Shown here: piece after piece, positions 6,562 to 29,877 of the stretch | Position numbering within the stretch: the first letter of the stretch is position 1 | How the letters are laid out: each line of letters opens with the position of its first letter | NCBI GenBank assembly: GCA_001797815.1 | Contig: MGQK01000072.1 | Location: 8,216 to 38,092 of the forward strand | Origin: Deltaproteobacteria bacterium RBG_13_61_14 | GTDB lineage: Bacteria; RBG-13-61-14 | DNA length: 29,877 nt | Direction: 5' to 3' | The notes under the pieces: generated by a model | Database searches by the model: none | Seen by the model: only the letters and a program-made list of their open reading frames with translations | Told to the model about the DNA's origin: nothing | Program-made: the position numbers and the translations under genes

Positions 6562-6585
6562 GTTCGATCTCCTTTCTGCTTGAAA

Positions 6586-6615: not shown

Positions 6616-6626
6616 AGTTTTCGAGG

Positions 6627-9645: not shown

Positions 9646-12045
<2,400 letters not shown>

Positions 12046-13984: not shown

Positions 13985-14114
13985 GCCGGGTTAGGGTATA
14001 TGAATCCGGGCGCAACGACTCGGGCCAAGCCGGCTATGAGCGAATCCTACATCAAATCGCCCGGTTGTGCAAACAAGAACAGGCAAACCAAGATTAAAAT
14101 GAGTAAGGTGTCCC
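13985..14114 (-). pseudogene. REP-associated tyrosine transposase (RAYT) 5' remnant, copy A
   Basis: On the minus strand this 130-base unit reads as a leader followed by codons for GLARVVAPGFIYPNP, the start of the RAYT (TnpA_REP, Y1_Tnp) family, usually MARLARVVAPG...HHVTQRG. The initiating ATG is mutated to ATA and the gene is cut after about 15 codons. It is about 80-85% similar by eye to copy B at 14941-15071, in the same orientation, with long identical runs such as CGAATCCTACATCAAATCGC. Confidence 0.7.
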
Positions 14115-14128
14115 AGCTATATAATGAG

Positions 14129-14383: not shown

Positions 14384-14580
14384 AGCTCTTTGCTTTTACC
14401 GGCTTGGTGGCCGGCCAAGGCTTCCTCGGCCAGAGAATCCAGCCGGCCCGCCCGGAGATCCTCTTCCAGCTGCCGGTCCCATGCCTCCGCGTCGTATTGC
14501 CGGAACCACTCGCGAAAAGCGGCAAGCTCCGCCGGATCAAACCTTTCGATTTCATGCTCGATCTTCTCAATCTTGGTCAT
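14380..14580 (-). CDS. Antitoxin of the RelE/ParE-type pair
   Basis: A 66-residue acidic helical protein starting MTKIEKIEHEIERFDPAELA, with FREWFRQYDAEAWDRQLEEDL and ending GRLDSLAEEALAGHQAGKSKEL. This is a common antitoxin type found immediately before toxins like the next gene. The C-terminal LDSLAEEAL helix and the tail probably bind and block the toxin. GGAGG is nine bases upstream of the ATG. There is no obvious DNA-binding fold, so autoregulation may rely on the complex or be absent. Confidence 0.82.
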   Translation of the reverse strand: MTKIEKIEHEIERFDPAELAAFREWFRQYDAEAWDRQLEEDLRAGRLDSLAEEALAGHQAGKSKEL

Positions 14581-14668
14581 AAGCCGATACCTCCGTCCGG
14601 TGGTTAATAGTATAAAACCATTCCCCGCAACAACGCAAGCGCGATCAAGGCGTGAATCCGCAGAGGGA

Positions 14669-14752
14669 CTCCGCCGACCTGCCTATGCCCGCCGGAGCTG
14701 GCTTCGCGCAGGCGGGAGCGCTACGTCCTCCGCGAAGGCGGATGGCGCAAAA
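14669..14752. repeat. GC-rich imperfect palindrome cluster upstream of the antitoxin
   Basis: Contains GACCTGCCTATGCCCGCC, GGCTTCGCGCAGGCGG and TCCGC-GAA-GGCGGA hairpin pieces, a composition typical of decayed REP-like sequences. The rest of the 14581-14780 gap shows nothing else; the antitoxin promoter probably lies in the AT-rich 14600-14625 part. Confidence 0.4.
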
Positions 14753-14780
14753 TTACGCAGATGAAATTCAAAGAAGCTCT

Positions 14781-14920
14781 GATACCAACTTTACGTCCGT
14801 CATATAGTGTTGCCCAAGGGTGCCACTGGCTAAGCCCGAAGGGCTTGCCAGTGCACGGGCAAGCTTCGCTTGGCCCGTGGCACCCTGTCCTAACTCTACG
14901 TTTGACGTAAAAATAGTATG
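14781..14920. repeat. Palindromic element predicted to fold as a three-way junction
   Basis: The outer arms (14781-14797 and 14904-14920) share TTTACGTC/GACGTAAA and part of ATAC/GTAT. Inside, AGGGTGCCA (14817-14825) pairs with TGGCACCCT (14878-14886). That stem encloses two hairpins, CTGGC.AAGCCC-GAA-GGGCTTGCCAG and CGGGCAAGC-TTC-GCTTG.CCCG, separated by TGCA. It lies directly next to RAYT remnant B, as REP elements mobilised by RAYT enzymes often do. Confidence 0.75.
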
Positions 14921-14940
14921 ACCATCTCCTTGCACGCCGC

Positions 14941-15071
14941 GCCGGGGGATAGGGTGCATGAGTCCGGGCGCAACCACTCGGGCCAAGCGGGCCATGAGCG
15001 AATCCTACATCAAATCGCCTCGTGGAGCAAGCGAGGGTGGCCAGATCAAGATTAAAATTAGTAAGCTGTCC
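14941..15071 (-). pseudogene. REP-associated tyrosine transposase (RAYT) 5' remnant, copy B
   Basis: The minus strand keeps the typical RAYT leader (GGGGACAGCTTACTAATTTT) and an ATG at 14995 for MARLARVVAPGLMHPIPRRG. The reading frame then runs into the palindromic element, so all catalytic parts (HUH motif and tyrosine) are missing. It is a direct repeat of copy A; the toxin-antitoxin genes lie between them. Confidence 0.75.
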
Positions 15072-15113
15072 CCGATTTAATCAGTTCATTTAAAACAAAC
15101 AAGGCAACTCATA

Positions 15114-15416: not shown

Positions 15417-16277
15417 TCAAGTTCTATCATCATCTTGACTTGCCTCCAAATCAATTGGCTCAACTCTGATTCGCTTTATAAGTTGAAGACTCTTATGGAG
15501 TGCGAGCAATTGAATATCATCTTCCATTCTTGAACGCAGAACTTTTTGAATTCCTTGGTTGTCAAACCCCGCATTTCGAAGACTGGCTGCAAGGCTATCT
15601 ATTGCCACAGTGTAATCAAGCAAAAGTCGCGTTTCTTCACGACATACTTTTACGGCTATTAGGTCAGTTCTTGCCTTCGTTTCTTTAGCTTTTGCGTCAA
15701 TAAGTCTCGCACGTGCTTCTGTTTCTCTAGCTTCAGCGTTCTTCCGACGTTTCGTGCTTTCTTTGAAGAACAAAGCATCGAAAATCTTATCCAAGAGTTG
15801 CACGGCTGATTTGCTTTTAAGTGCACCTGAAACCAAAAGCAACCATTCCCCGGGTGAGGACATGGAGATTCTTTCGATCTCAGCCCTCCCAGAGGTTGGT
15901 ACTATATCGTAAAGATCATCAACTTGAAATTGAAATTTTACACCAAGTTGCGTAATCCTCGCTGATACTCCAACATTTCTCATGACCGTTATGAACTCCG
16001 CGAATTTCGTTCTAACTTCAACATCGGTCGGTGTCTTCGGTTTCTTCCATGATTTAGGCTGATTCAGCAAACCAAACATCTTAAGATGCTTAATAACATA
16101 ATCGTATGCTTCGCAGGTTTCAGCGATGTATGAAGCGACTCCAACTCTTGCAGAAATGCCGTCAATAGCCAGAAGAGTCCGCGCCAGTTGATCTGCTCGC
16201 CAAATACCGCCGGTCTGAACTTGAATTCTGACGCGACAAGTATATCCATCTTCTGAATTTTTCATTTTTTCACCCAT
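15417..16277 (-). CDS. Unknown protein with a C-terminal coiled coil
   Basis: A 286-residue soluble protein I do not recognise. The N-terminal 175 residues look globular and mixed alpha/beta (RVRIQVQTGGIWRADQLART; MSSPGEWLLLVSGALKSKSA). A strongly charged coiled coil follows (KRRKNAEARETEARARLIDA onward, about 180-215), then a helical tail ending in an acidic EASQDDDRT. There is no signal peptide or membrane segment. Base composition is clearly more AT-rich than the housekeeping genes nearby, suggesting recent transfer. Paired with the orphan at 16441 and the FmdB gene it forms a possible small accessory operon; whether this is defence-related is speculation. Confidence 0.75.
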   Translation of the reverse strand: MGEKMKNSEDGYTCRVRIQVQTGGIWRADQLARTLLAIDGISARVGVASYIAETCEAYDYVIKHLKMFGLLNQPKSWKKPKTPTDVEVRTKFAEFITVMRNVGVSARITQLGVKFQFQVDDLYDIVPTSGRAEIERISMSSPGEWLLLVSGALKSKSAVQLLDKIFDALFFKESTKRRKNAEARETEARARLIDAKAKETKARTDLIAVKVCREETRLLLDYTVAIDSLAASLRNAGFDNQGIQKVLRSRMEDDIQLLALHKSLQLIKRIRVEPIDLEASQDDDRT

Positions 16278-16342
16278 TTCCTCTAATTGGGTTAGACTTT
16301 CGCTTCCTCAAAGAATTCGAGGAACATCATTAACTTGGAATT

Positions 16343-16411
16343 CCCCGTAGCTTGCTACGGGGATGAGTCGCTCTGATATCGAACCCCGATACCCCGCAGC
16401 TTGCTGCGGGG
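16343..16411. repeat. Two tandem hairpins with compensatory base changes
   Basis: Hairpin 1 (16343-16362) is CCCCGTAGC-TT-GCTACGGGG and hairpin 2 (16392-16411) is CCCCGCAGC-TT-GCTGCGGGG. The arms differ at one pair, T-A in the first and C-G in the second, so pairing is preserved. The 29-base spacer contains GAACC, which can pair with GGTTC after the second hairpin. No T-run follows on either strand. Confidence 0.85.
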
Positions 16412-16440
16412 AGGTTCATTTCAGGCTCATCTCTCTCGGT

Positions 16441-17094
16441 TTAGGCTCGTTTGCGGTTCCGTCGAGATGTGGGGTTGCTTTTTATCGTATCGTTTCGCAT
16501 GTTGTCGTCAATCATTTTCCCCTCTTCAAGTTCATTTAAATATACTACGAGATTGCCAGCAATTTTGTCAAAAACCATAGGCAAGAACGGTTGCAGGTCC
16601 AAAAAGGTAGGGTCCGGTTGAAGTGGTCCACCATGGTAATGCCTCATATGCTGTAAAATAACTGCCTTCTCCGATGCGGGAATTAAACTCATAGGATCCC
16701 GAGCATGGTGATCATGCAAATTTGAGAGGTGAATAAAACCGCACCCGAAGCGATAGACAGATTCTGTCCAGCCTTGTAGCTGATTGGCAAGCTCCACCAT
16801 ATCTCGGTCCGTCACCTTTTTCTGTTTGCCATTTGCGATAGTCAATCGCCAATCTTTCCCATTGATGGATGCCTCGATAAGTTGATTGCGAGTGGCTCTA
16901 TCTTCAATTGATAGCAAATAAATCGATCTGATCATCGAGTCAAGTTCTTGCCTTAAGATGGAGACAATAGGCGCATAAAGCCCTGCCGAGTATAAGAGAT
17001 GGATTGCTTGGCGGTGTTCAGCAGATCTCGAACGCACCTGTCTGCAGAAAATTCCCAAACTGTTCATGTGGCTTTTATCTTTTTTCGTTTTCAT
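16441..17094 (-). CDS. Unknown helical protein, possibly HEPN-like
   Basis: A protein of 217 residues beginning MKTKKDKSHMNSLG (a GTG two codons earlier is also possible). It is mainly helical: a charged helix (RSRSAEHRQAIHLLYSAGLY), then IVSILRQELDSMIRSIYLLS, a middle domain with DWRLTIANGKQKKVTDRDMV and RFGCGFIHLSNLHDH, and a basic tail SNPTSRRNRKR. The pairing of an early (A)xxxLYxxGLYxPxxxxLRxxLE-type helix with a later helix near FIHLS recalls HEPN-type or DUF5677-like proteins. I do not see a clear RxxxxH catalytic motif, so this is a weak guess. AT-rich composition and the repeat-bounded position suggest acquisition by transfer. Confidence 0.72.
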   Translation of the reverse strand: MKTKKDKSHMNSLGIFCRQVRSRSAEHRQAIHLLYSAGLYAPIVSILRQELDSMIRSIYLLSIEDRATRNQLIEASINGKDWRLTIANGKQKKVTDRDMVELANQLQGWTESVYRFGCGFIHLSNLHDHHARDPMSLIPASEKAVILQHMRHYHGGPLQPDPTFLDLQPFLPMVFDKIAGNLVVYLNELEEGKMIDDNMRNDTIKSNPTSRRNRKRA

Positions 17095-17100
17095 GACCAC

Positions 17101-17499
17101 AATACTATCTCAAATTCGTTGAGAGCAGGGACACCATACTGATTTTAATTTTTGGTTACCGGGCGGCCGGAAAGGCAGTAGTCAGTAGGCAGCCAGCCTG
17201 CGCGACAAAGCGCTTCGGCGGCGGCACGTAGTCGGTAGTCAGGGAAAACCGTGAAGCGTGAACCGCAAACCGTAAACCGTGAAACCTGGTGCGGGGCACT
17301 GGCGGTTGGGAACGGCCGGAATGAGGCTCGGCCGGGCATGTCGGAATTGTGGCATGGGCGCAAAGGGTTGTCAAGAGCGAAAAGAAGATGGAAAGATTTG
17401 GACCACGAAGGCACGAAGCAAGGCAAGAATAAGAGAATTCGATGATAACGGATTCCCATTCTTTAGCTTGCTCTCTTCGTGTCTTAGTGGTTAACATTT
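17101..17499. repeat. Repeat-filled gap: degenerate tandem units and a long inverted repeat
   Basis: There is no credible gene. At 17175-17255 lie GTAGTCAGTAGGCAG and GTAGTCGGTAGTCAG units. At 17247-17285 are six imperfect 7-8 base units of CCGTGAA/CCGTAAA type. GGACCACGAAGGCACGAAG (17399-17417) is inverted against CTTCGTGTCTTAGTGGTT (17476-17493), a form seen in many environmental genomes. These lie just downstream of aspS. Confidence 0.6.
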
Positions 17500-19314
17500 T
17501 TATTTATCCAGATCCAGTTTGAGGTGGAGTTCCTTGAGCTGGGCCGGGTCAATCTCGGAGGGGGCGTCGGCCATCAGGTCGGTGGCGGTCTGGGTTTTGG
17601 GGAAGGCGATGACGTCGCGGATGGATTCGCAGCCGAGGAGGAGCATGATGATGCGGTCGAGGCCGAGGGCGATGCCGCCGTGGGGGGGAGCGCCGAAGCG
17701 GAGGGCGTTCAGGAGGAATCCGAACTTGCGCTCGGCCTCTTCTTCGCCGATGCCCAGGGCCCGGAAGACCTGAGATTGCACCGGGGCCTGGTGGCTGCGG
17801 ATGCTGCCGCCGCCCAGCTCGACGCCGTTGAGCACCACGTCATAGGCCTTGGCCCGGACCGAGCCCGGGTCGGTCGCGAGCTTTTCGATATCCTCGTCGC
17901 GGGGCGCGGTAAAGGGATGGTGCATGGCGTAGAAGCGCTGGTCCTGGTCGTTCCATTCCAGGAGCGGGAAGTCCTTCACCCAGAGGAAGTCGAGCCGGTC
18001 CTGGGGGATCAGGTTCATTTTCTCGGCGACCATGCGCCGCAGCTCGGCCAGGGCCTGGTGCACGACCTTCTTCTGGTCGGCCATCATCAGGACCAGGTCG
18101 CCCGGCTCGGCTGGCATGGTCTCGCGGAGCCCGTTAAGCTGGGCCTCGGAGTAATATTTCACCGCCGGGCCTTGCCAGCCGGCCTCCCGCAGGCGGATCG
18201 CGGTCAGCCCCTTGGCGCCGAAGGCCTTGAGGTCGTGGGTGAGCTTGTCGGTGTCGGTGCGGCTTAAGCCGGCGCCGGCCTTGACGCAGATGCCCTTGAT
18301 CACGCCGCCTTTTTCCACGGCTTCGGTGAAGAAGCGGTATTCGCATTTTCCCAAAAGATCGGTCAGGTCATGAAGCTCAAGCCCGAAGCGGGTATCGGGC
18401 CGGTCAATGCCGTAGCGGGAGACGGCCTGGTCATAGGTCATGCGGGGGAAGGGAATGGGGAGCTCCAGCCCTTTGATCCCCTTCCAGACCAGCGCAAACA
18501 TTTTCTCGATCAGACTGTAGATATCTTCCGGCTCGACGAAGCTCATTTCCAGGTCAATCTGGGTGAACTCGGGCTGGCGGTCGGCGCGGAGGTCCTCGTC
18601 GCGCATGCAGCGCACGATCTGAAAGTAACGATCGAAGCCGGCCACCATCAGGATTTGCTTGAAGAGCTGGGGGCTTTGGGGGAGCGCGTAGAACTTGCCG
18701 GGGCTCAGCCGGCTGGGCACCAGGAAGTCGCGGGCGCCTTCGGGCGTGCTCTTGGTCAGGAAGGGGGTCTCCACTTCAATGAAGCCGTTGGCGTCGAAGT
18801 AGTGGCGGATCAGGCTGACCGCCCGGTGGCGCTTGAGGATGCGCTGCTGCATCTCGGCGCGGCGGAGGTCGAGGAACCGGTAGCGGAGCCGCACCTCCTC
18901 GGAGACATTGGCCGCGTCCGAGATCAGCGACTCCTTGACCTCGTCCGCCACCAGGAACGGCGTCACCTGGCAGGTGTTGAGCGCCTTAAGCTCGCTCACC
19001 CGCACCTCGATCTCCCCGGTCTTGCGCTCCTCCTTGACCGCCCCCTCCGGCCGGCGCTCGACCTGGCCTTTAATCGCAATTACCCACTCGTTCCGCACCT
19101 GCCTGGCCTTCGAGTAAAGCTCGGCCGAGACGCTTTTCGGGTCCACGATGGCCTGGGTCACGCCCCAGCGGTCGCGGAGGTCGAAGAACAAAAGCTCGGC
19201 ATGGTCCCGGTAGTTCTGGACCCAGCCCATCAAACACACTTCTTTGCCGATGTCGGTCGCGCGCAACTCCCCGCAATGGTGGGTGCGTTTCCAGTTACCG
19301 AGTGCGTCTAACAA
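17500..19314 (-). CDS. aspS: Aspartyl-tRNA synthetase (bacterial type, probably non-discriminating)
   Basis: A 604-residue class II synthetase that charges tRNA-Asp in the cytoplasm. An N-terminal OB-fold anticodon domain (GWVQNYRDH...FFDLRDRWG) is followed by the catalytic core with FLDLRRAEMQQRILKRH, motif 2 (RCMRDEDLRADRQPEFTQID), the bacterial GAD insertion, MHHPFTAPRDED, and motif 3 (GGIALGLDRIIMLLLG). The residue after RD is His38; His at this site (as in Pseudomonas) is linked to non-discriminating enzymes, Leu to discriminating ones (established knowledge; one position only). The start overlaps the upstream small ORF by seven bases and hisS precedes that, forming one operon. Confidence 0.96.
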   Translation of the reverse strand: MLDALGNWKRTHHCGELRATDIGKEVCLMGWVQNYRDHAELLFFDLRDRWGVTQAIVDPKSVSAELYSKARQVRNEWVIAIKGQVERRPEGAVKEERKTGEIEVRVSELKALNTCQVTPFLVADEVKESLISDAANVSEEVRLRYRFLDLRRAEMQQRILKRHRAVSLIRHYFDANGFIEVETPFLTKSTPEGARDFLVPSRLSPGKFYALPQSPQLFKQILMVAGFDRYFQIVRCMRDEDLRADRQPEFTQIDLEMSFVEPEDIYSLIEKMFALVWKGIKGLELPIPFPRMTYDQAVSRYGIDRPDTRFGLELHDLTDLLGKCEYRFFTEAVEKGGVIKGICVKAGAGLSRTDTDKLTHDLKAFGAKGLTAIRLREAGWQGPAVKYYSEAQLNGLRETMPAEPGDLVLMMADQKKVVHQALAELRRMVAEKMNLIPQDRLDFLWVKDFPLLEWNDQDQRFYAMHHPFTAPRDEDIEKLATDPGSVRAKAYDVVLNGVELGGGSIRSHQAPVQSQVFRALGIGEEEAERKFGFLLNALRFGAPPHGGIALGLDRIIMLLLGCESIRDVIAFPKTQTATDLMADAPSEIDPAQLKELHLKLDLDK

Positions 19315-19616
19315 GTTTCTTTTCCTCCAACCGCCTTCTCGCTGCGTGTTTTTCGCGTCATTTGTCCGGATGACTTAGCCCAGATCCTTCTCAGCTTATT
19401 CCAGTTCCTTCTGGCAGCCCTTTTCTCTCGCTCGTTTTGCTCGCGGAGATGAGGCTCCCATCCTAATATTCCGGCCAATTCCAATATCCTCTCGAGAATC
19501 TCGAATTTTTCCGCCGGAGTCATTTTCTCTATTCCAATATTCCAAACCTCGACGATTGGATAAAGAGGCTCATTCGCAATCCTCCATTGATGCAATTTTT
19601 CAGAATCCCAAATCAT
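19308..19616 (-). CDS. Small unknown ORF wedged between hisS and aspS
   Basis: A 102-residue charged, helical protein (MIWDSEKLHQWRIANEPLYP; MTPAEKFEILERILELAGIL; a basic KRAARRNWNKLRRIWAK tail). It overlaps the hisS stop by four bases (ATGA) and the aspS start by seven. These overlaps argue that it is translated, although its base composition is more AT-rich than both neighbours and I know no family. The basic tail might bind RNA. Alternatively it is a late insertion between two synthetase genes. Confidence 0.6.
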   Translation of the reverse strand: MIWDSEKLHQWRIANEPLYPIVEVWNIGIEKMTPAEKFEILERILELAGILGWEPHLREQNEREKRAARRNWNKLRRIWAKSSGQMTRKTRSEKAVGGKETC

Positions 19617-20860
19617 GGTAAATTTAAAATCTTCGATTCGGTTACCAGTTTCTCTTCCCCGGTCAACATTTCCTTGATCTTCACCATTTTTCTTGAAAAC
19701 TCTTCTTCACCGATAATCAAAGCTTCTGGTGCCGCTTTCGCCGCCAATTTCATCTGCGCCTTCAAGCTCTTCGGCTCTTCCTCCAAATACATCTCTACCC
19801 GTTTCCCTTGCTGGCGAAGGGCCAACAATATTTTAAGCGCCGGCTCCCGCATCTTCTCCGTATAGACGATGAAATAATCCAACCGCGCTTCTGCTTCCAC
19901 TGGCTTGGGCATCAGCAGCGCCAGCCGCTCCAGACCCAGGGCGAAGCCGATGCCCGGAACCTCCGGCCCGCCTAAATCCTTGACCAGCCCGTCGTAGCGG
20001 CCGCCGGCCGCAATCGCGTTCTGCGCGCCTAACCCGTCCTCGGCCAGATACTCAAAGGCGGTGCGGGTGTAATAGTCCAGGCCGCGCACGATCCGCGGGT
20101 TCACCCGATAAGGCGTTTCAAACAGTTTCAGGTAATTTTGCAGCCCCTGGAAATGACTCCGGCAGGCCTGGCACAGCGAATCCAGCGCCTGGGGCGCCGC
20201 GGCCGCCGCGGCCCGGCATTTCTCTTCTTTGCAGTCCAGGACCCGGAGCGGGTTCTCCTCTACCCGGCGCCGGCAGTCGGCGCAGAGTTGGTTCTCCTTC
20301 CCCCGGAGAAAAGCCACCAGCTTCTCCCGGTAGCCGGGCCGGCACTCCCGGCATCCGAGCGAGTTGATCTCCAACGCCGCGCCTTTCACCTCCAGTTTTT
20401 CAAAGAGCAGCCGGAGCATGGCCATGATCTCGGCGTCCACCGCGGGTCCGGCATAACCCAGGGCCTCGCACCCCAGTTGATAGAACTGCCGAAAACGGCC
20501 CTTTTGCGGCCGCTCGTAGCGGAACATGGGGCCCGAATAAAAGAGCTTGACCGGCCCGCCCTGGTCCAGCCCGGCCTCGAGAAAGGCCCGGACCAGCGAG
20601 GCGGTGCCTTCGGGCCGCAGGCTCAAGGAGCGCCCCTTGCGGTCGGCAAAGCTATACATCTCCTTGGCCACGATGTCCGTGCTTTCCCCGATGCTCCGGG
20701 TAAAAAGCTCCGTCGCTTCCAGCACCGGAAGCCGAACTTCCCGGAACCCGAAACATTGAAAGAGTTCCCGCGCTTCCTCCTCGATCCGCTGCCACGCCTC
20801 GCTCTCGGGCGGGAGAACGTCGCGGAAACCCTTTACCGCGGTATATCGCTTGGCCGCCAT
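19613..20860 (-). CDS. hisS: Histidyl-tRNA synthetase
   Basis: A 415-residue class II synthetase joining histidine to tRNA-His. It opens YTAVKGFRDVLPPES, has motif 2 with FRYERPQKGRFRQFYQLGCE, the histidine-binding segment RIVRGLDYYTRTAFEY, motif 3 GIGFALGLERLALL and a C-terminal anticodon domain. It carries a pattern of paired cysteines in the insertion (GCRECRPG, CADCRRR, CKEEKCR, CQACRSHF) suggesting a zinc-type site, as in several delta-proteobacterial HisRS. Length fits the family. It leads the hisS-ORF-aspS operon. Confidence 0.96.
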   Translation of the reverse strand: MAAKRYTAVKGFRDVLPPESEAWQRIEEEARELFQCFGFREVRLPVLEATELFTRSIGESTDIVAKEMYSFADRKGRSLSLRPEGTASLVRAFLEAGLDQGGPVKLFYSGPMFRYERPQKGRFRQFYQLGCEALGYAGPAVDAEIMAMLRLLFEKLEVKGAALEINSLGCRECRPGYREKLVAFLRGKENQLCADCRRRVEENPLRVLDCKEEKCRAAAAAAPQALDSLCQACRSHFQGLQNYLKLFETPYRVNPRIVRGLDYYTRTAFEYLAEDGLGAQNAIAAGGRYDGLVKDLGGPEVPGIGFALGLERLALLMPKPVEAEARLDYFIVYTEKMREPALKILLALRQQGKRVEMYLEEEPKSLKAQMKLAAKAAPEALIIGEEEFSRKMVKIKEMLTGEEKLVTESKILNLP

Positions 20861-20971: not shown

Positions 20972-21523
20972 ATGAAGAAATGGAAGGCGGGCTTTTTCGC
21001 CGGTTTGTTCCTGGCGGCCGGGCTCGCCGGAGCCAGCACGGTGATTGCGCTGGACCTGAAGGCGCTCTCCCAGCAGGCCGAGGTGATCGTGCTGGGGCGC
21101 TGCCTGGAATCCTCGGTGCGCTGGAACGCGGACCGGACCCGGATCTACACCGACTGGACCGTGGCGGTGGACCAGGCCGTGAAAGGAGCGCCGGGCAAGC
21201 AAGTCGTGGTCCGCCAGTTGGGGGGAGAACTGGACGGCAAAGGCCTGCTGGTCTCGGGCGTGGTGCGGCTCAGCGCGGGCGAGGAGGCGGTCCTGTTCCT
21301 GGGCCCGGCCCGGGAAGGGGTCCGCCGGATCCTGGGGCTGAGCCAGGGCCATTACCGGGTGCAAACCGATCCGGTAACCAGCCGCAAATGGGTCCTGCAA
21401 GCAGTAGAACCGGCGGCCCCGGCCGCCGCCGCTTCCAGCCAGACCGGCGCTTCGGCCGTTCAGGTGTCCCTGGATGAGTTCCTGGCCCAGGTGCGGAAAG
21501 CCGCGGCGGAGGCCAAGCCATGA
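20972..21523 (+). CDS. Secreted protein of unknown function, partner of the matrixin
   Basis: A 183-residue protein starting MKKWKAGFFAGLFLAAGLAG with a clear signal peptide. The mature part has a conserved-looking core (LKALSQQAEVIVLGRCLESS; YTDWTVAVDQAVKGAPGKQV; VVRQLGGELDGKGLLVSGV; GEEAVLFLGPA) that I have seen next to matrixin-type proteases, but it has no named biochemical role. The C-terminal region is Ala-rich and probably disordered. The start at 20972 has GGAGG eight bases upstream; an upstream ATG at 20939 is less likely. Its stop overlaps the protease start (ATGA), implying they are made together. It might be an inhibitor, chaperone or substrate; that is inference. Confidence 0.78.
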   Translation: MKKWKAGFFAGLFLAAGLAGASTVIALDLKALSQQAEVIVLGRCLESSVRWNADRTRIYTDWTVAVDQAVKGAPGKQVVVRQLGGELDGKGLLVSGVVRLSAGEEAVLFLGPAREGVRRILGLSQGHYRVQTDPVTSRKWVLQAVEPAAPAAAASSQTGASAVQVSLDEFLAQVRKAAAEAKP

Positions 21524-22776
21524 AGCGCCGGACCTTCGCGGCGATGATCCTGGCCGGGCTTCTGCTCTGGACCGGCGCCGCTCAGGCGTTCGTGATCTTC
21601 CGGGCCAACGACGGCCAGATGGTCAAATGGGACTGGGCCGCGGAAGGCGGCTCGCTTCCTTACCTAATCAACCCAACCAAAGACGGCGACGCCCTGGGCG
21701 GGGATGACCCGGTCACCGTGTTCCAGGACAGTTTCAGCGTCTGGCTGCCGCCTGAGGTTCCCACTACCGAGGCCAGCGTTACCTGCAGCGGCACCACCGG
21801 CATTGATACCTACGGTCTTCCCGGCGACGACTCCAACGTGCTCCTCTTTGTCAAAGACGATCCTGACCTCGCCAGCGGCGTCCTGGCTGTGACCCTGACC
21901 ATGTATGAAACCACCACCGGCCGGATCATGGAAACCGACATCGCCTTCAACGATGACTATGACTGGCGCACTGACGGCACCGCGGACGGAAAAACCACTT
22001 ATGAATTAGGCGTCGTCGCCATCCACGAGATCGGGCATTTCCTCGGGCTCGACCACAGCTTTGAGGCCAACGTCGGGGGCAGCTTTGACCCGGCCATTGC
22101 CTGCACCATGTGGCCGTATTATTTCGGCACGGAGGAAAGGAGCCTGGAAGACGACGACATTGCCGGGATCACCGCGGTTTTCCCCGATCCGGCGGCCCGG
22201 GCCGCGGCTTTCGGCGCAATCACCGGCCGGGTGACCACCTGGGACGGCCAGCCGTTGTTCGGAATCCACGTGGCGGCGATTACCGCGGCCGGCAAGATCC
22301 CCGCGGTCGGCGCCCTGAGCGCGATCACCGGCTTTTACCAGATTGACAACCTGCCTCCGGGCAGTTACTACCTTTACATTGACTCGCCAGTGATCGAAGG
22401 CAAGTTTTATCCCGCCTTTGTCGCCCCTTATTGGTCTAATTATCAGGGTGGGGCCGATCGAATCAGCTTCATTCAACTTTACCGTCACGTCGTGGCGCCT
22501 TCTGCCGCGTCTCTGAAGGACGGCGACCCGGTTTTTGACCGGGCGCAGGTGGTGAGCGTCAGCGCGGGCGCCACTGTCGCCGACATCAACTTTGTGGTCG
22601 GCTCTCCGCCGGAGATGCTGGCCTATGACTTTGACGGCAGCAGCCGGAACTGCGGCGAGCTGGCCGGGCCGGCCGATACCGGGATGGCGGGTCTTTTTCC
22701 GGCGCTCTTGCCTGCCGGCCTCGGGCTATGGCTCCGCCTGCGCCGGCGCCGGGATGCTAAAGCGGATCGGGGGTAA
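21520..22776 (+). CDS. Matrixin-family secreted metalloprotease with a CTERM-like tail
   Basis: A 418-residue extracytoplasmic zinc protease. Signal peptide MKRRTFAAMILAGLLLWTGA is followed by the catalytic domain with HEIGHFLGLDHS (HExxHxxGxxH, three zinc His and the catalytic Glu) and a Met-turn in ACTMWPYYF. Then come a carboxypeptidase-regulatory-like beta-sandwich (AITGRVTTWDGQPLFGIHVA), a Cys near the end (SSRNCGELAG) and a tail of hydrophobic helix plus RRRR (DTGMAGLFPALLPAGLGLWL, then RLRRRR). Such a tail is like CTERM sorting signals, which are usually cut or anchored by an exosortase-like or rhombosortase-type enzyme. No sorting enzyme is visible here. The gene is coupled to its upstream partner by ATGA overlap. 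Confidence 0.9.
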   Translation: MKRRTFAAMILAGLLLWTGAAQAFVIFRANDGQMVKWDWAAEGGSLPYLINPTKDGDALGGDDPVTVFQDSFSVWLPPEVPTTEASVTCSGTTGIDTYGLPGDDSNVLLFVKDDPDLASGVLAVTLTMYETTTGRIMETDIAFNDDYDWRTDGTADGKTTYELGVVAIHEIGHFLGLDHSFEANVGGSFDPAIACTMWPYYFGTEERSLEDDDIAGITAVFPDPAARAAAFGAITGRVTTWDGQPLFGIHVAAITAAGKIPAVGALSAITGFYQIDNLPPGSYYLYIDSPVIEGKFYPAFVAPYWSNYQGGADRISFIQLYRHVVAPSAASLKDGDPVFDRAQVVSVSAGATVADINFVVGSPPEMLAYDFDGSSRNCGELAGPADTGMAGLFPALLPAGLGLWLRLRRRRDAKADRG

Positions 22777-22782: not shown

Positions 22783-23349
22783 GTGGCCGCGATCGCGGTG
22801 GGGGTGCTGACCGCGAGCGACAAGGGCTCGCGGGGCGAGCGCAAGGACGAGAGCGGGCCTCTGATCCGGGAGCTGGTTCGGCGGATCGGGGGCGAGGTCA
22901 AGCGCTACGAAATTCTGCCCGACCAGAAAGAAGCATTGGCCGACAAACTCCGCGCCTGGGCCGACCAGGACCGCCTCGACCTGATCTTCACCACCGGCGG
23001 CACCGGCTTTTCCCCCCGCGACTTCACGCCCGAGGCCACTCTCGCCGTCTGCGACCGGCTGGCCCCGGGGATCGCGGAGGCGATCCGGGCCGAGGGGCTG
23101 AAAAAAACCCCCAGGGCCATGCTTTCGCGGGCGGTGGCCGGGATCCGCGGCCGCACCCTGATCATCAATCTTCCCGGCAGCGTCAAGGGAGTCCGCGAAT
23201 CGCTGGAAGCCATCCTGCCCGCCCTGCCCCACGCGGTCGAGGTCTTGCGCGGCGAGGCCCGGGACTGCGGGCATGAAGTCAAAGCCCAAAGCCGGCGTCA
23301 AAGCGGGCGGGCGGGTCGAGGCCGCCAGAGGAAGGGTGATCGGCCCTAG
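22783..23349 (+). CDS. mogA: Molybdopterin adenylyltransferase (MogA/MoaB), 3' end altered
   Basis: A 188-residue MogA/MoaB-fold protein starting at a GTG, seven bases after the protease stop. It contains VGVLTASDKGSRGERKDESG, the TTGGTGFSPRDFTPEAT loop that binds molybdopterin, [19 protein letters not shown] and the final helix [20 protein letters not shown]. MogA adenylates molybdopterin before molybdenum insertion. The MogA core ends near residue 166 (GEARDCGHE); about 22 further residues (VKAQSRRQSGRAGRGRQRKG...) are arginine-rich and look out of family. A near-identical copy of the last 193 bases at 27862-28054 ends with a different short tail and stop, so this gene's end was probably rearranged. 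A molybdopterin oxidoreductase lies 5 kb away. Confidence 0.9.
   Translation: MAAIAVGVLTASDKGSRGERKDESGPLIRELVRRIGGEVKRYEILPDQKEALADKLRAWADQDRLDLIFTTGGTGFSPRDFTPEATLAVCDRLAPGIAEAIRAEGLKKTPRAMLSRAVAGIRGRTLIINLPGSVKGVRESLEAILPALPHAVEVLRGEARDCGHEVKAQSRRQSGRAGRGRQRKGDRP
23083..23275. repeat. 193-bp repeat within mogA, copy 1
   Basis: Aligns without gaps to 27862-28054 in the same orientation with 10 mismatches in 193 bases (about 95%). The mismatches affect eight codons; six changes are synonymous and two alter residues (Arg to Ala, Arg to Gly). Confidence 0.93.
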
Positions 23350-23357
23350 TCACGACC

Positions 23358-23660
23358 TTGATGAAGCCGCGAATGCCGGGAAAAAGTTTGTTTGCCAATG
23401 TGGTCCTCTTCCTGGCCGCCTCCCTCCCCACCATCCTGCTCCTGGAAGGGATCGCGCGGGTGGTCCTGTGCCGGGACTTTGGGCAGGGACTGCTCATCGG
23501 CGATCCGTTGCTGGAACTGACTCCCCGCGGTCCGCGGCTTCGGCCGGACCAGCGCCTGGATTGGCCCTCGCCGCTTTCCCGCCGCACCGTCCGCTTGAAA
23601 ACCAATGCCCAAGGCTTCCGCGGGCCAGCCATCGCCCCGGAAAAGAGTCGGCCCCGCCTT
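23358..23660 (+). pseudogene. N-terminal fragment of an SGNH/GDSL-type hydrolase-like gene
   Basis: The frame encodes a membrane anchor (SLFANVVLFLAASLPTILLL) followed by YxLTP-like (ELTPRGPRLRP) and NAQGFRGP segments that precede the catalytic GDS in SGNH-hydrolase-like membrane proteins. The sequence then breaks off at PEKSRPRL, just before the catalytic block would start, and continues as unrelated sequence. It begins nine bases after mogA. It is a truncated gene and the catalytic part is missing. Confidence 0.6.
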
Positions 23661-23771
23661 TTTGCCGGGCGGGGTGTGGGTAACGCGGGGTTGGGAGAAG
23701 CAATTGGCGGAGACAGCGGAGCTGATTGGGGATCGGGGTCCGTTTCATCTTCAGCCCGCTTAACAGGGTAT

Positions 23772-23945
23772 TGAGGCAAGAAGACGATCATTTACTGGAT
23801 GAAAAAGGCGGGCGATAGGATCGCGGAGGAGGAAGAGATCGGGGCGACGCGGCGGGAATTGGCGGCGTGGGGCCAGCGGCGGAACCATCCATGGAAGGGA
23901 GCGATGGTGGCGACGATGTTTACCGGCTGGGTTTACGATTTTTTG
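23772..23945 (+). pseudogene. Fragment of a second IS110-family transposase
   Basis: The frame encodes GKKTIIYWMKKAGDRIAEEE, TRRELAAWGQ and WKGAMVATMFTGWVYDFL. This corresponds to the N-terminal RuvC-like region of IS110-type transposases (the HKKT start and the xGAMEATxFTGWIYDxL segment carrying the Glu region). It is cut on both sides: an in-frame stop lies just before GKKT and homology ends at YDFL. It is a different branch from the intact IS110 at 12745. Its 3' end runs antisense into the end of the YfhO gene. Confidence 0.68.
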
Positions 23946-26580
23946 ACCGGAGTATTTTCCACGGCTTGCTTATCACTATCATGGCTAAGCTCGTGGCCAG
24001 CGAAGTCCAGAGCCCGAGTCTAAAGCTTCGCGGTTGATAGACCATTTCCACGTAATGCGTTCCAGGTGAAAGCGCCAGTCCGCGAAAGGCATGGTTGACC
24101 CGGAGGAGTGTGATTTCCTGGCCTCGGTCAAAGGCTCGCCAACCCGGGAAATAGGTGTCGCTTATAAATAAAATAGCCGGTGCGGACACTCTGCTCAGGA
24201 TGGATACGCGGTTCGGCTGGTAGTCGCTGATCTGCACACCCTCTCCCGCCCCTGGTGGAGGTGGGGAAGGAAGGATAATGGGAGGCTTTTCCAGAACCGC
24301 CATCCGGGCAGGGTCAAATTCTCCGCTAGCCATGAACTTGAGCCTGGCTTCGCGTTCAGGGATGATGCGGATCTGATGGAGGAGAAAGGCCCGGGGCAGG
24401 ACTTGGCGGTTGCGGTAAAGGCTCACATCGCCGCTTTCCGCTAGCTTCTCGAATACGAACTCCTGGTGGTAAACCGCGGGGTCCAGCCAGAGTCCAGAGG
24501 AACTTACCTTCCCTTCTGGCTGGCTGGCTCGGACCCCAAATTGCAGTTCCAGAGTCTGGCCGGCCCAAATGGAGAGATCGAGCGAATGTTTCTGAAATCT
24601 CCGCTCATCCGCCGGAATCTCTTTTTGGAAGATCAGAAACTCCTTCGGATCTGGCGGTCTCCGGGCCAGGAGAGTGAAGATCATCGCGGCAGTTCCTTTT
24701 TCCCTGCCGATCTGGAACTGGAGGCGGTCTCCTTTCTTGACGAAAATGGTATGCCTCCATGCTCCATTGGCTGGGAGAACCAAATTTGGCCGACGATACG
24801 GGCTGGTGGCCGCATCCCTGATCAGGCAGGGAGCCGGCGAACAATCATTCTTCCCCGTGTAGTAAATTGGGTGGTAATCCTGGGAGAACTTTAAGTTTTC
24901 ATGGTCGGTGGCAATAAGCCCCAAGTTTAAAAGATTCAAAAACTTCAGGTTCTCGAACTGAATGAAGTGTCCGCGCTTAAACATGTCAAAGCCTGGCATG
25001 CTTCGGTGCAGCCGAAAGTCCTCCAGTCGCCAGAAGGGCTTAATCAGGTTAAGGAAATCATAGGTCCAGCGCGGTATGACAGACATGAAAAAGTCAAAGG
25101 ATTGTGTATGGTAATAGATGCCCGCCTGGTAAGGAATGGAGAGGGAATGGTGATAGTTAGGATTGGTCAGGTTGAGGGAACGGAGCCCTACAGGCAGGCT
25201 TTGGACATACTTAACGTAGATCGGATCATGTTTCATGAACTCAGCCCCGCCTAGGCGGAGTTGGGTGAGACAAGACAGATAAAAGGCGCCGGTGGTCAGG
25301 GCCAAGATTACAAAGTTTAAACTAGCGCCAATTCTTCGTTGCTTCCTTTGCGCGAAATAATGAAAAGCGGCCATAATAGAAATTATCGCGACGGCCAGAC
25401 CGTTGAGCGCAAGAAAAACATCTTTGCTCGCAGCCCAGCTCAAGGCCAGGGCCAGAAGCAAAAAGAGGAAGCCCTGTGCGCTACTCGCTTCCGAGATAAG
25501 GTGATCCATGGCCTTGCCAGCCAGGACGGCGAGAAAAACTATACCAATGACCATCGTGTAACCGTGCCAGTGAAATCGGTTCAGCACTGGAATCAGGTGA
25601 ACCAGACGTAGACACCCCAGTGTGTTGGTGGAGACGGCAAAGCAAAGGGCGAAGATCACCAGGAGCAGCAAGACTTGTAGGTCCTTCCGCACAAGAACGA
25701 AAGCAAAGAGTACCGAGGCGAGAATCAGCGGGTTGAAAAATAAGAAGTGGAGGAAGTCCTTGTTGACCTTTATGCTCTGTTGCATGAAGAAATCGAGAGG
25801 AAGCTTTGTTGACCGGGTGCTGAAGGCGATAAGCTCGAAAGTGGGCAAGATTTGAACGAGGATTAAGAGGGTTACACCGGTCACGGCCCCGGTAAAAAGG
25901 GCCAGTCGGGAGAGAGCCAGCCTGGGGACTGGACGTAAGAAGAGCCCGTAAAGCATGATGACCAGGACGGCCAAGACCATGATCCGGCCAAAGAATTCGA
26001 GCTGACCTCCCAGCACTTCAAAAAGGCAAATGGCCATGAAACCCAACAGGTAACGGATTCTTGGGAGCAAGAGGAGACGGTAGAGCAAGGCATAACCAAG
26101 GGGCACCAGGCTCAAGGTGAGAAGGTTGGGCAAGAAGTGACGCTGTTCAATTAGGAGAAAGAAGCCAAATCCGGTCTGGATGACGGCCAGCAAGGCCGGG
26201 AAGGGCCGGATCTTGAGGCCACGCAATAAATAATAGAGTCCAAGGTTATAGATCAGGAGATGAAGGGTGAGGCTCATCACTGCGGCCTTATCAAAGGGAA
26301 GCAGGAAATAGATGACGCCAGCAGGAGAAAGGGCACTGGAATGGGACCAGGCCAGGAAAGGGAAACCCGCAAGCAGGCCCGGGCACCAGAGGGGGAGGAA
26401 TCGTTCTTTCAGGGCCTGGTTGACAAAGATGCGGTAGGGCCACCATTCGGCCAGGTTCTCCTCTCCATCCAGGACCAGGGTGCGTCCCGTGGCCAAGCAG
26501 ATGATCAGGGGAAGGAAGGAGAGGAAAAAAAGCAGGCTCGCCAGCAGGAGATCGGGATGACGATGGTAGAGTCGCTTCAT
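23920..26580 (-). CDS. YfhO-family large membrane protein (GT-C-like)
   Basis: An 886-residue protein with about 12-14 membrane helices in the first 60% (opening MKRLYHRHPDLLLASLLFFL) and a soluble C-terminal part that closes with a last helix before a basic tail. Early motifs are EENLAEWWPYR, LPLWCPGLLAGFPFLA and GGQLEFFGRI, typical of YfhO-type proteins thought to be glycosyltransferase-C-like enzymes acting on lipid-linked sugars in cell-envelope polymers. The C-terminal DTYFPGWRAF and NHAFRGLALSPGTHYVEMVY blocks are strongly typical of YfhO. A repeat-coded insert (LPSPPPPGAGEGV, 24239-24274) lies in the soluble part, and the last residues (SKNRKPSR) come from antisense IS110 sequence. The start at 26580 is chosen over 26631 because it begins just before helix 1. 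The acceptor and sugar are unknown; the nearby RfbD remnant suggests an earlier polysaccharide locus. Confidence 0.88.
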   Translation of the reverse strand: MKRLYHRHPDLLLASLLFFLSFLPLIICLATGRTLVLDGEENLAEWWPYRIFVNQALKERFLPLWCPGLLAGFPFLAWSHSSALSPAGVIYFLLPFDKAAVMSLTLHLLIYNLGLYYLLRGLKIRPFPALLAVIQTGFGFFLLIEQRHFLPNLLTLSLVPLGYALLYRLLLLPRIRYLLGFMAICLFEVLGGQLEFFGRIMVLAVLVIMLYGLFLRPVPRLALSRLALFTGAVTGVTLLILVQILPTFELIAFSTRSTKLPLDFFMQQSIKVNKDFLHFLFFNPLILASVLFAFVLVRKDLQVLLLLVIFALCFAVSTNTLGCLRLVHLIPVLNRFHWHGYTMVIGIVFLAVLAGKAMDHLISEASSAQGFLFLLLALALSWAASKDVFLALNGLAVAIISIMAAFHYFAQRKQRRIGASLNFVILALTTGAFYLSCLTQLRLGGAEFMKHDPIYVKYVQSLPVGLRSLNLTNPNYHHSLSIPYQAGIYYHTQSFDFFMSVIPRWTYDFLNLIKPFWRLEDFRLHRSMPGFDMFKRGHFIQFENLKFLNLLNLGLIATDHENLKFSQDYHPIYYTGKNDCSPAPCLIRDAATSPYRRPNLVLPANGAWRHTIFVKKGDRLQFQIGREKGTAAMIFTLLARRPPDPKEFLIFQKEIPADERRFQKHSLDLSIWAGQTLELQFGVRASQPEGKVSSSGLWLDPAVYHQEFVFEKLAESGDVSLYRNRQVLPRAFLLHQIRIIPEREARLKFMASGEFDPARMAVLEKPPIILPSPPPPGAGEGVQISDYQPNRVSILSRVSAPAILFISDTYFPGWRAFDRGQEITLLRVNHAFRGLALSPGTHYVEMVYQPRSFRLGLWTSLATSLAMIVISKPWKILRSKNRKPSR
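24239..24274. repeat. GC-rich repeat insert inside the YfhO gene
   Basis: The plus-strand string CCCTCTCCCGCCCCTGG with TGGAGGTGGGGAAGG resembles the common mobile-palindrome type seen between genes in many environmental genomes. Here it is in frame and gives the Pro/Gly-rich LPSPPPPGAGEGV. Confidence 0.5.
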
Positions 26581-26746
26581 TTCATTGCCTGACTTGTTTA
26601 GATTTGTAACCAAGCCCCAATCGCAGTTCATAACCTTGCTGCCGGCCTATGAGATGAAGCTCGGACAAAGGTGTTACTCTTTGATCTAGTGGACCGTGGT
26701 CGGTCATCATCGGGTTGTTGGGAGGTTCTCCCGCTCCTTTCAGAGC

Positions 26747-26992
26747 CTAGCCGGGCGCGCCGGGCGCGAAACCGGGAAAGCTTTGCCGCATCCTCCTTGC
26801 AATCTCCACCCGATGAAAGGCCGCGGTGTTTAGCACCGCCTCGGGCTTATGCTCCGCCAGAACCGAAAGCGTCCGTTCAAGGTCGGTAACTTCGATGTCG
26901 TCATGGGTGAGGGAAATTAAGCAATGCGAACTCTGGAGCTTCTGGAACTCCTGGCCCAATTGTCCATTCGCGCCGATGATTACAATTTTCAT
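26747..26992 (-). pseudogene. N-terminal fragment of dTDP-4-dehydrorhamnose reductase (RfbD-like)
   Basis: The frame starts MKIVIIGANGQLGQEFQKLQ, the Rossmann GxxGxxG signature, and continues DDIEVTDLERTLSVLAEHKP and EAVLNTAAFHRVE, typical of RfbD, which makes dTDP-L-rhamnose. After HRVE the sequence becomes unrelated (RRMRQSFPGFAPG) and stops at 81 residues of about 290 expected. All of the catalytic Tyr-Lys region is missing, so it cannot be active. It probably marks a former envelope-polysaccharide locus next to YfhO. Confidence 0.75.
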
Positions 26993-27331
26993 CTCTAATC
27001 CGATGGGGAACGACTTAACGAATTATAACAAGCTCTGGATTCTTTGACAAGGCAGGCAAAGTTCGCCGGCCGCTTTGAGGTCTGGCGGTGACCAAGCTGT
27101 CCAGGTTCAGACACATGGCAAATACTCGACCTACTTTCCTGGGCGCGCGCCGTTTGAGTGCAACCCCCCAAAGGCGCTCTACGCCTTCTTCTCTTGGCGG
27201 CTTCGCCCCGTTAACCGCCTTCTTCTCTTTTTTCAGCCCACCCCGAATTTTCGGGAACACCATAGAATGGCGCTAACTTAAGCCTTCCTGTATTTATTTC
27301 GATGTTGAAATTCCCGGAATAATTTTCTGGG
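26993..27331. other. 340-base gap with tandem hairpins 27171-27233
   Basis: No gene. AAGGCG (27171-27176) pairs with CGCCTT (27182-27187) followed by CTTCTCTT. GGCGG (27196-27200) pairs with CCGCC (27215-27219) followed by TTCTTCTCTTTTTT. The 14-base string CGCCTTCTTCTCTT occurs twice (27182-27195 and 27216-27229). The second hairpin with its T-rich tail could stop plus-strand transcription, but no plus-strand gene lies upstream. Confidence 0.45.
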
Positions 27332-27373
27332 TTGATTGAGGAGCTGATAGTTTTTCGGCCGGCATTTTCGGGC

Positions 27374-27835
27374 GCGTGGTTCCAGGCGCAGGCCTATTGC
27401 CACTGGAAAAAAGCCCGCCTGCCCACCGAGGCGGAATGGGAATGGGCGGCGCGGGGGCCGGAGGCCCCGATCTGGCCCTGGGGCGATGAATTTGAATGTA
27501 GCCGAGCCTGCACCTCGGTCCGACCCTGCCGCAGCTACGATACCTGCCCCGTGGGCACCCACCCCGGGGGTCAGAGCCGGTGGGGAGTGGAGGATCTGGC
27601 CGGCAACGTCTGGGAATGGAACCAAGATGCCTATGCGGTCTGGGACCAAGCCGAGCCGGAGAAGTTGCTCACCGCCGGGGAAGAGGCCCGGCGACCCCGG
27701 GTCATCCGGGGCGGCTCCTGGCGGGAAACCGAGCCTTATTCCTTGCGTTCCTCGGAGCGAAGCAGCGGCCCCCCGGGCCAGGCCTTTTTCAACGTGGGTT
27801 TCCGGTGCGTTCAATCCGTGAGTTCCAACCCCTAA
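27374..27835 (+). pseudogene. C-terminal fragment of an FGE/SUMF1-type (formylglycine-generating-enzyme-like) protein
   Basis: The frame runs AWFQAQAYCHWKKARLPTEA, EWEWAARG, WPWGDEF, then GVEDLAGNVWEWNQDAY, RVIRGGSW and FNVGFRCVQ. These are the well-known blocks of the FGE-sulfatase/EgtB-like domain, covering its C-terminal two thirds. The N-terminal part, normally ending in VSW before FQAQAYC, is missing and replaced by unrelated sequence, so the gene is truncated. It ends directly before the second mogA fragment. Confidence 0.8.
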
Positions 27836-27861
27836 TTTCCAACTAATTTCCAATCCGAGCC

Positions 27862-28068
27862 ATCCGGGCCGAGGGGCTGAAAAAGACGCCCAGGGCCATG
27901 CTTTCGCGGGCGGTGGCCGGGATCCGCGGCCGCACCCTGATCATCAACCTGCCCGGCAGCGTCAAGGGAGTCCGCGAATCGCTGGAAGCCATCCTGCCCG
28001 CCCTGCCCCACGCGGTCGAGGTCTTGGCCGGCGAGGCCGGCGATTGCGGACATGACAGCAGGCAGTAA
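27862..28068 (+). pseudogene. Second copy of the mogA 3' end
   Basis: It encodes [20 protein letters not shown] through [19 protein letters not shown] and a TAA stop at 28066-28068. The first 193 bases match mogA 23083-23275 with ten changes. It has no start codon or N-terminal domain. The short, orderly ending here is closer to an ordinary MogA C-terminus than the basic tail at 23349. Confidence 0.9.
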
Positions 28069-28075: not shown

Positions 28076-28189
28076 CTGTAGCGAAAATGTAGGGGCAAGG
28101 CATGCCTTGCCCCTACGGATGGCCATGAATCAATAACTTACGGGCGAACGGAAATCGTGATGATGGCATACAAAGGCATTTCGCTACAG
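28076..28189. repeat. Fold-back element with a perfect 28-base palindrome inside
   Basis: The outer arms CTGTAGCGAAAATG (28076-28089) and CATTTCGCTACAG (28177-28189) pair with a single bulge. The left part holds a perfect palindrome (28089-28116, half GTAGGGGCAAGGCA), related to decayed copies at 8627 and 8723. The element begins eight bases after the mogA fragment stop. The remaining gap up to 28377 holds a CAGTAGATAGTAGGCAG degenerate run (28191-28207) and CGCGGCTGACCCCAG (about 28267-28281), and no gene. Confidence 0.8.
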
Positions 28190-28377: not shown

Positions 28378-29877
28378 TCATGAGCCGGCGACCTTAACCG
28401 GGATCCCGTCCAGCACCGAGATCCCCGAAAACTGGTCATAGAAATTCTCGTCCGTCACCTCGTTCACGTTCACCCCCGGGTGCTCTCTGGCCACCCTCAA
28501 CTTCACGCCTTCCCGGTCGTGGCCCCAACCAAAGGGCATGCTGACCACCCCCGGCATGATGTCGTCAGTGATCTCCACCGGGACGTTGATCTCCCCGATC
28601 CCGGTCGAGAGCTTGACCGGCCGTCCCTTCTCCAGACCCAGCCTCGCTGCGTCCGTCTTGCTGATGATTAACGAGCAGTCGGGCTTCCCCTTGACCAGGC
28701 GAAGGCTGTTGTGCATCCAGGAGTTGTTGCTTCGCAACGTCCGGCGGCTGACCAACAGGAATTCATCCGGGGGCGGCGCCGACCAGGGTTCGATCCTTTT
28801 TTCGAGCCGATCCAGGTCTTTAACCAACCCCGGGGGGACCAGGTTGATCTTCCCGTCCCGGGTGCAAATGATCTTTTCCAACCTGGGTTCGAGCGGCCCC
28901 AGGTCCATCCCGTGCGGTTCCCTTTTCAGTTTTTCGAGAGACAGCTTATGCGGCCCGAGCTTGAGAAGCAGGTTTAACTGCCGCTCCGGGGACAGCCCAT
29001 AAAGCGCTTTCCTTTTGATCCATCCGACCGAGGCCGAGAGGGCGCCCGAATGTTTTTCCACGCGATACAACAGGTCGAGCATGACCTCCCAGTTGTGCTT
29101 CGCTCCCTCCGGTTTTTGGAAAACGGGCGGCGCGTAGCGGGCGACGTTTCGGATGGCCATGGCGTGCTCGAGCAGGGGGTAATGATCCGTTTCCAGGGGA
29201 CTGGTCGGAGGCAGGATGAGGTCGGCATAGCGGGTAGTTTCGTTGATGTAGAAATCAATGGCGACCATGAACTCCAGACTCTTGAGGGCGCGGTCAATCC
29301 GCTTGGTGTTGGGCAACGAAAGCGCGGGGTTTCCGGCGTTGGTCACCAGCGCCCGGATCTGGCCCGGACCGGGCGTCTCGATTTCCTCGGCAAAGACCGC
29401 CGCCGGGAACTCGCCGTTGAACTCCGGCAGGCCGCTGACCCTGCTTTTCCATCGGTTGAAGTATCCCGGCTGGCGGAGGATTTTGGAGAGCCCGACCAGA
29501 TCCACCGCCGGCGTGGTGAACATGACGCCTCCCGGCCGGTCAACATTCCCGGTCGCGACGTTAACCGCATCAATCAGCCAGGTGGCCAGGCTCCCGAACT
29601 CCTGGGTGCTGGTCCCCCTGCGGCCGTAGCAGGCCGCCTTCTGGGCGGAGGCGAACTCGACGGCGATCGCTCGAATGTCTGCCTCCGAGAGTCCGGTCGC
29701 CTTCGCCGCGCGGGAGGGCGGGAACCCTTTTGAGATCTCTTTGATTCGGTCCAGGCCGTTGATCCTTTGTTCGAGCGGTCCCGGATGGGAAAGGCCTTCC
29801 TCGAACATGACGTTCAGCAGCGCCAGCAGAAAAAGCGCATCTGTCCCGGGCCGGATGAAATAATGCGCATCCGCGAT
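28378..29877 (-). CDS. Molybdopterin-dependent oxidoreductase, C-terminal 500 residues (cut by window edge)
   Basis: The frame is open to the right edge, where it reads DAHYFIRPGTDALFLLALLN, the molybdopterin-binding segment of the DMSO-reductase superfamily. Further on are YGRRGTSTQEFGSLATWLID, VTNAGNPALSLPNTKRIDRA, DFYINETTRYADLILPPTSP (LExDHY follows) and the MopB C-terminal beta-barrel with DAARLGLEKGRPVKLSTGIG and MPFGWGHDREG. The N-terminal 4Fe-4S region and the residue binding Mo/W are outside the window, so the substrate cannot be told. It converges on mogA, whose product feeds cofactor to such enzymes. Length suggests about 700 residues in full. Confidence 0.92.
   Translation of the reverse strand: MADAHYFIRPGTDALFLLALLNVMFEEGLSHPGPLEQRINGLDRIKEISKGFPPSRAAKATGLSEADIRAIAVEFASAQKAACYGRRGTSTQEFGSLATWLIDAVNVATGNVDRPGGVMFTTPAVDLVGLSKILRQPGYFNRWKSRVSGLPEFNGEFPAAVFAEEIETPGPGQIRALVTNAGNPALSLPNTKRIDRALKSLEFMVAIDFYINETTRYADLILPPTSPLETDHYPLLEHAMAIRNVARYAPPVFQKPEGAKHNWEVMLDLLYRVEKHSGALSASVGWIKRKALYGLSPERQLNLLLKLGPHKLSLEKLKREPHGMDLGPLEPRLEKIICTRDGKINLVPPGLVKDLDRLEKRIEPWSAPPPDEFLLVSRRTLRSNNSWMHNSLRLVKGKPDCSLIISKTDAARLGLEKGRPVKLSTGIGEINVPVEITDDIMPGVVSMPFGWGHDREGVKLRVAREHPGVNVNEVTDENFYDQFSGISVLDGIPVKVAGS

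Follow-up and report, generated by a model that had tools for sequence, protein, structure and literature searches.

A repeated mogA 3' end beyond a stretch of broken genes, and gene-end stubs elsewhere, in a deltaproteobacterial draft genome

In Deltaproteobacteria bacterium RBG_13_61_14 (GCA_001797815.1), a 4.6-kb stretch of broken genes separates mogA from a second copy of the mogA tail. The locus raises the question of how this second gene end, and the genes in front of it, came to lie where they do. The window considered here, that is the whole stretch of 29,877 nucleotides that was analysed, corresponds to C72:8216-38092 (C72 being contig MGQK01000072.1) and ends with the contig, which cuts off a molybdopterin oxidoreductase gene (28378-29877, minus strand, PF00384 and PF01568). 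The draft genome comprises 4.74 Mb in 132 contigs, with N gaps, and has a mean G+C content of 61%.

The mogA gene, its second 3' end and the interval

The intact mogA gene (22783-23349, plus strand, 188 codons) matches its family profile over the full length (PF00994, positions 1-144 of 144, E 8e-34) and is the only full MogA of the genome; the remaining full MoCF_biosynth matches sit in much longer open frames and, judged by this length, are probably MoeA/CinA-like. DNA self-comparison reveals a direct repeat between 23080-23276, within mogA, and 27859-28055, both on the plus strand. The repeat is 197 nt long, ungapped and 94.4% identical (11 mismatches, E = 3e-83). A sequence-only reading of the window had placed the downstream copy at 27862-28054, inside these limits, and had described it as running into an orderly stop. 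Both observations are borne out: the repeat match and codon comparison delimit a mogA 3' stub (27859-28068, plus strand) with its own stop after GHDSRQ. The edges of the repeat are abrupt: a few bases beyond either end, similarity is no higher than chance. Similarity past the gene end, or 5' remnants of a second copy, would be a sign of tandem duplication, and neither was seen, similarity ending at 23276/28055 on one side and at 23080/27859 on the other. The mogA tail DNA is present in just these two copies in the draft genome; the idea that it is a dispersed mobile fragment is ruled out by its being found nowhere else.

The eleven substitutions within the 197-nt repeat fall in nine codons, of which seven are changed synonymously (dS 0.16, dN 0.02, dN/dS about 0.13). 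Given eleven random substitutions, at least seven synonymous codons would be obtained with P = 0.014. A recount over the 193 nt considered earlier agrees with the six synonymous changes then found among eight changed codons. Since their differences are mostly synonymous, the two copies appear to have diverged as functional genes. The earlier proposals of an insertion at the mogA 3' end, involving a second 3' end that had diverged under selection, and of capture from a relative, here the more likely course than a fresh duplication, are both supported by these values. The longest run identical in both copies, 75 nt at 23173-23247 (plus strand; 27952-28026 in the stub), has P = 0.05 against shuffled mismatches and is the proposed crossover patch.

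The basic tail of the upstream mogA, singled out in the sequence-only reading as foreign to the family, is not special: mogA tails are variable within the family, and the L074 mogA, from the same order, is also basic-tailed, ending GTKKYRNPQTRKKGRGVK. Searches of the genome sample with this tail (23277-23349), with the join (27815-27870) and with the flank beyond 28055 revealed a single dispersed element, a palindrome in the flank. This perfect, REP-like palindrome of 28 nt, GTAGGGGCAAGGCATGCCTTGCCCCTAC, occupies 28089-28116 and has 89-100% matches on C82, C130, C124, C129, C62, C81, C60 and C71. It recurs on most contigs sampled, and a near-copy lies at 8624-8650 of the window.

Four truncated genes and one intact YfhO gene had been read between the copies. 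Partial Pfam coverage confirms two of the truncated genes, an N-terminal stub of an RmlD/RfbD-type gene (26747-26992, minus strand, PF04321 positions 1-67 of 287) and a C-terminal stub of an FGE/SUMF1-domain gene (27377-27835, plus strand, PF03781 positions 97-254 of 255). The identities given to the other two, SGNH-like and IS110, are not borne out by Pfam, which gives no match for either piece up to E <= 1. The former (23358-23660, plus strand) is the N-terminal stub of a gene without an assigned family, termed 'X', and its one relative in the genome is likewise a stub, on contig C71; the latter is a short open stretch (23799-23960, plus strand) with no second genomic copy. The gene for a YfhO-like large membrane protein (23920-26631, minus strand) is open across 903 codons and in this respect intact, but its Pfam match (PF09586, E 2e-7) covers the C-terminus only. 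Its G+C content is 53%, and its composition is among the lowest 4% of 2.7-kb windows.

Two further pieces were absent from the sequence-only reading. One is a dispersed, MITE-like non-coding repeat (27095-27250), truncated and without its right end, with matches of about 82-89% on C129, C110, C62, C81 and C130. The other is the 3' end of a dispersed transposase-like repeat (27265-27388, minus strand), with matches of 85% and 80% on C124 and C76, which abuts the FGE stub and may be of IS4 type, as its C-terminal motif suggests. The MITE-like repeat, about 250 nt long with inverted terminal repeats CTGTCCAGGTTCAGATACATGGTAAAC, was also seen at loci L025-L028 and L030. No recombinase gene is found among the Pfam matches within the interval.

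Several features of the surroundings can be added. A Matrixin (M10) metalloprotease gene with a carboxypeptidase-regulatory-like domain (21520-22776) lies a few bases 5' of mogA on the same strand, and hisS (19613-20860) lies near mogA on the opposite strand; a HisRS homologue stands immediately 5' of mogA in three Dehalococcoidia loci (L041, L043 and L044). The region 12745-15079 of the window holds a complete IS110-family transposase gene, one end of which has a 134-nt direct repeat, 81% identical (13988-14121 and 14946-15079). A search for RNA families and tRNAs gave a single tRNA-Asn, far from the interval.

A related island and gene-end stubs elsewhere in the genome

A paralogous island on another contig (C71:55487-59280, i.e. 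15487-19280 of locus L149) keeps the order of the interval: an 'X' stub (C71:55487-55657, about 53-55% identical to that of the window), reverse-strand envelope genes of the PMT_2 and GDSL families, and a C-terminal FGE stub (C71:58674-59114), which shares 68% protein identity with the FGE stub of the window and is cut at nearly the same point. Because the order of genes and stubs matches, the interval seems to derive from a unit that occurs at this second place, there without mogA. The interval is thus no random gene graveyard, being partly common to C71. Within about 45 nt after the C71 FGE stub there is a 121-nt stub of the neighbouring ABC permease gene; the FGE stub falls outside, not inside, the duplicated permease pair. 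A general link between FGE stubs and gene-end stubs was considered and rejected: 2 of 11 FGE matches adjoin gene-end stubs (on C71 and C72), and those of the other stub loci that were viewed in sequence are without FGE.

The mogA arrangement is not unique and recurs at other genes of this genome, a fact that is invisible from the window alone. A survey of 2.39 of the 4.74 Mb (1,721 called genes), in which each protein was compared with its surroundings and cases were picked by hand, identified 11 loci with an intact gene, usually one or two cargo genes, and then an orthologue-like stub of the gene's own end. All stubs are direct, on the strand of their gene. Nine are 3' ends lying downstream (on C72, at mogA, and on C62, C24, C71, C3, C81, C124, C39 and C66) and two are 5' ends lying upstream (C44 and C16). 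Most are about 50-200 nt long. The permease stub of C71 derives from near the gene end, not from the end itself, and is separated from its gene by two small genes. The cargo includes a 23S_rRNA_IVP gene on C62, a DUF374 gene on C66, an open reading frame without family on C39 and a short hairpin repeat on C81, and no recombinase was recognised in the cargo of these other stub loci.

Some of these loci carry small gene pairs. At L182 (C24), 5466-7391 comprises a gene, a nucleotidyltransferase-HepT pair of toxin-antitoxin type and then a diverged copy of the last 100 nt of the gene, with its own stop. At L248 (C44), 12948-14350, a nucleotidyltransferase-HEPN pair is inserted 5' of an indolepyruvate-oxidoreductase-like gene, and 5' of the pair there is a copy of the ribosome-binding site and about the first 19 codons of this gene. 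At L151 (C62), 10934-12562, the 23S_rRNA_IVP gene, which encodes a four-helix bundle, separates a gene from a copy of its last 101 nt.

Genes and stubs are 64-98% identical in nucleotides, with dS ranging from 0.07 to saturation. For most stubs dN/dS is about 0.1-0.5 (C62 0.54, C124 0.75), values whose lowness is in part an effect of ascertainment, as detection by protein similarity favours conserved stubs. In six of the 11 pairs, one identical run is longer than expected from shuffled mismatches (P about 0.05 or less): 58 nt on C62 (P<0.001), 36 nt on C16 (P=0.001), 26 nt on C124 (P=0.002), 29 nt on C44 (P=0.01), 17 nt on C3 (P=0.02) and the mogA patch on C72. The run on C62 stands within an otherwise diverged pair. 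C66 is borderline, and C24, C39, C71 and C81 have no significant patch across the main segment.

The same survey applied to 80 loci from other genomes (1.0 Mb, 698 genes) gave no gene-end-stub locus; these loci are short, about 12.5 kb each, and the chance of finding none at the same rate is about 0.02, so that the control is weak but consistent. Local repeats occurring exactly twice in the first 1.69 Mb of the genome are all direct, none being inverted except one self-palindrome. A literature search for the gene-end-stub pattern itself returned nothing directly on it.

Alternative origins of the second gene end

The second mogA might be what remains of a tandem pair: a complete second gene, produced by local duplication or arriving as a whole orthologue, would later have been reduced to its last 197 nt by insertions and deletions. 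Such decay is in keeping with the direct orientation of all local two-copy repeats, with the transposable remnants of the interval and with the occurrence of tandem paralogues in this genome, for example an acyl-CoA-dehydrogenase-type pair on C93. However, random decay would equally leave 5' and internal remnants, whereas the stubs are mostly short and mostly 3' (nine against two). Moreover, a single-copy gene such as mogA is unlikely to be retained for long as a tandem pair, and the identical patches require an additional explanation. This origin is possible but rather unlikely.

Misassembly, in the sequence-only reading the main alternative, would have merged into one contig the alleles of two co-occurring strains, with and without cargo, the stub and its flank being the allele of the cargo-less strain. 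It is kept as a rival, the genome being a draft in many contigs with N gaps, but is decidedly improbable. No stretch of more than 75 nt is the same in both mogA copies. N runs are absent from their vicinity and from the junctions of the other loci, C124 excepted, while cargo joined in the middle of a gene would need reads spanning the junction. The divergence of the pairs extends from about 2% to 36% of nucleotides, a range that no single strain pair gives. This spread of stub ages disfavours co-assembly of one strain pair and also fresh duplication in place followed by neutral decay.

Prophage e14 inserts in the 3' end of icd. Phage 21 does so too, replacing 165 bp (PMC4129442). The layout at mogA resembles that of the replaced icd end: an intact gene with an alternative 3' end, an insert, and a displaced 3' end of similar length. 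A site-specific integrative element at the mogA 3' end, as had been suggested earlier, would then have lost its integrase. In contrast to icd, there are neither integrase nor phage genes here and several unrelated target genes show the same layout, with one or two cargo genes and no recognised recombinase. The nine tyrosine-recombinase matches (PF00589) of the genome are all on contigs other than C72. Among 80 mogA loci of other genomes there is no convincing 3'-end repeat; a second match to the locus's own mogA occurs in L091 alone and is weak (66% over 70 nt). A site-specific element at mogA is rejected as very unlikely: no recombinase is recognised, and the layout does not recur convincingly at mogA in the other genomes.

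Transport of the mogA tail a few kilobases downstream by an insertion sequence or the MITE-like repeat is the least probable origin of all, in spite of the MITE-like and transposase-like remnants adjoining the FGE stub and the hairpin repeat between the C81 copies, since both orientations and distant copies would be expected whereas the unique local copies are all direct, and no dispersed element ends at the stub borders 27859 or 28055.

Single-crossover integration and the entry of foreign genes

The best reading, in which we place about even confidence, is a single-crossover (Campbell-type) integration of incoming DNA bearing a homologous gene end. The crossover would have occurred within the patch of identical sequence, here 23173-23247. 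It would have left a complete mogA, its last part perhaps that of the donor, followed by the incoming genes and then by the mogA stub, which would begin where the incoming homology starts and continue into the original downstream flank. The donor part would thus comprise mogA after the patch and the stub before it. Later, transposable repeats and deletions would have trimmed the incoming genes to stubs. Events of this kind seem to have been frequent in the genome, and after each of them cargo came to separate a gene from an orthologue-like stub of that gene's end. For this course of events we infer a circular intermediate, a donor, a direction of exchange and the order of the steps.

Single crossover entails a direct duplication flanking the insert, which is found at mogA and at the other loci, and a patch of identity long enough for RecA-type exchange, which in mogA measures 75 nt (P = 0.05). 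The identical patches are the expected trace of an exchange at such a patch. The mechanism does not predict the 3' bias of the stubs (9 to 2), which counts against it; the bias would stem from selection, insertion on the 3' side being favoured because promoter and reading frame are kept. Neither a donor nor an empty site was found: relatives of the same order carry mogA in an unrelated context, and synteny comparison with two genomes of that order gave no neighbourhood in common.

After xenologous gene displacement in situ, a complete gene and a diverged second version of it stand at the same site. The mogA locus likewise has two diverged versions together, one complete, but the second version is an end only and cargo lies between. 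Homology-facilitated illegitimate recombination shares with the arrangement described here the homology at a single end but deletes host DNA there, whereas here gene ends are duplicated (PMC3240628). A closer likeness is provided by conjugation in E. coli with pJA2, where a gene end is directly duplicated with the incoming DNA between and homology on one side: when DNA with a lacZ end was introduced, part of that end was duplicated in 56 of the 60 integrants analysed (PMC3240628). The duplications in 14 sequenced integrants measured 109-950 bp, a size similar to that of the stubs here (about 50-200 nt), and the authors ascribe these to a single crossing-over of a circular molecule with loss of part of the homologous end (PMC3240628). 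Unlike these integrants, the loci of this genome are old natural footprints, at many genes and with diverged homologues, and involve no known vector or selection.

That ten or more comparable loci occur in roughly half of the genome suggests that this bacterium has repeatedly acquired DNA through recombination at gene ends. It is conceivable, if quite unlikely, that the lineage repeatedly inserts small cassettes (nucleotidyltransferase-HEPN/HepT pairs, the 23S_rRNA_IVP gene, single genes and envelope-glycan islands) at gene boundaries by an uncharacterised route that needs no integrase, the interrupted gene being restored with the end of a diverged homologue and its old end left behind. The broader pattern of stubs is more interesting than the case of mogA alone. 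If the reading of gene-end recombination is right, gene-end stubs would be a fossil record of the entry of foreign genes without integrases or transposases, marking the point of exchange, the cargo and how far the donor had diverged. Any genome could then be scanned for such stubs as a measure of one-sided recombination with diverged relatives, a process that is difficult to observe by other means.
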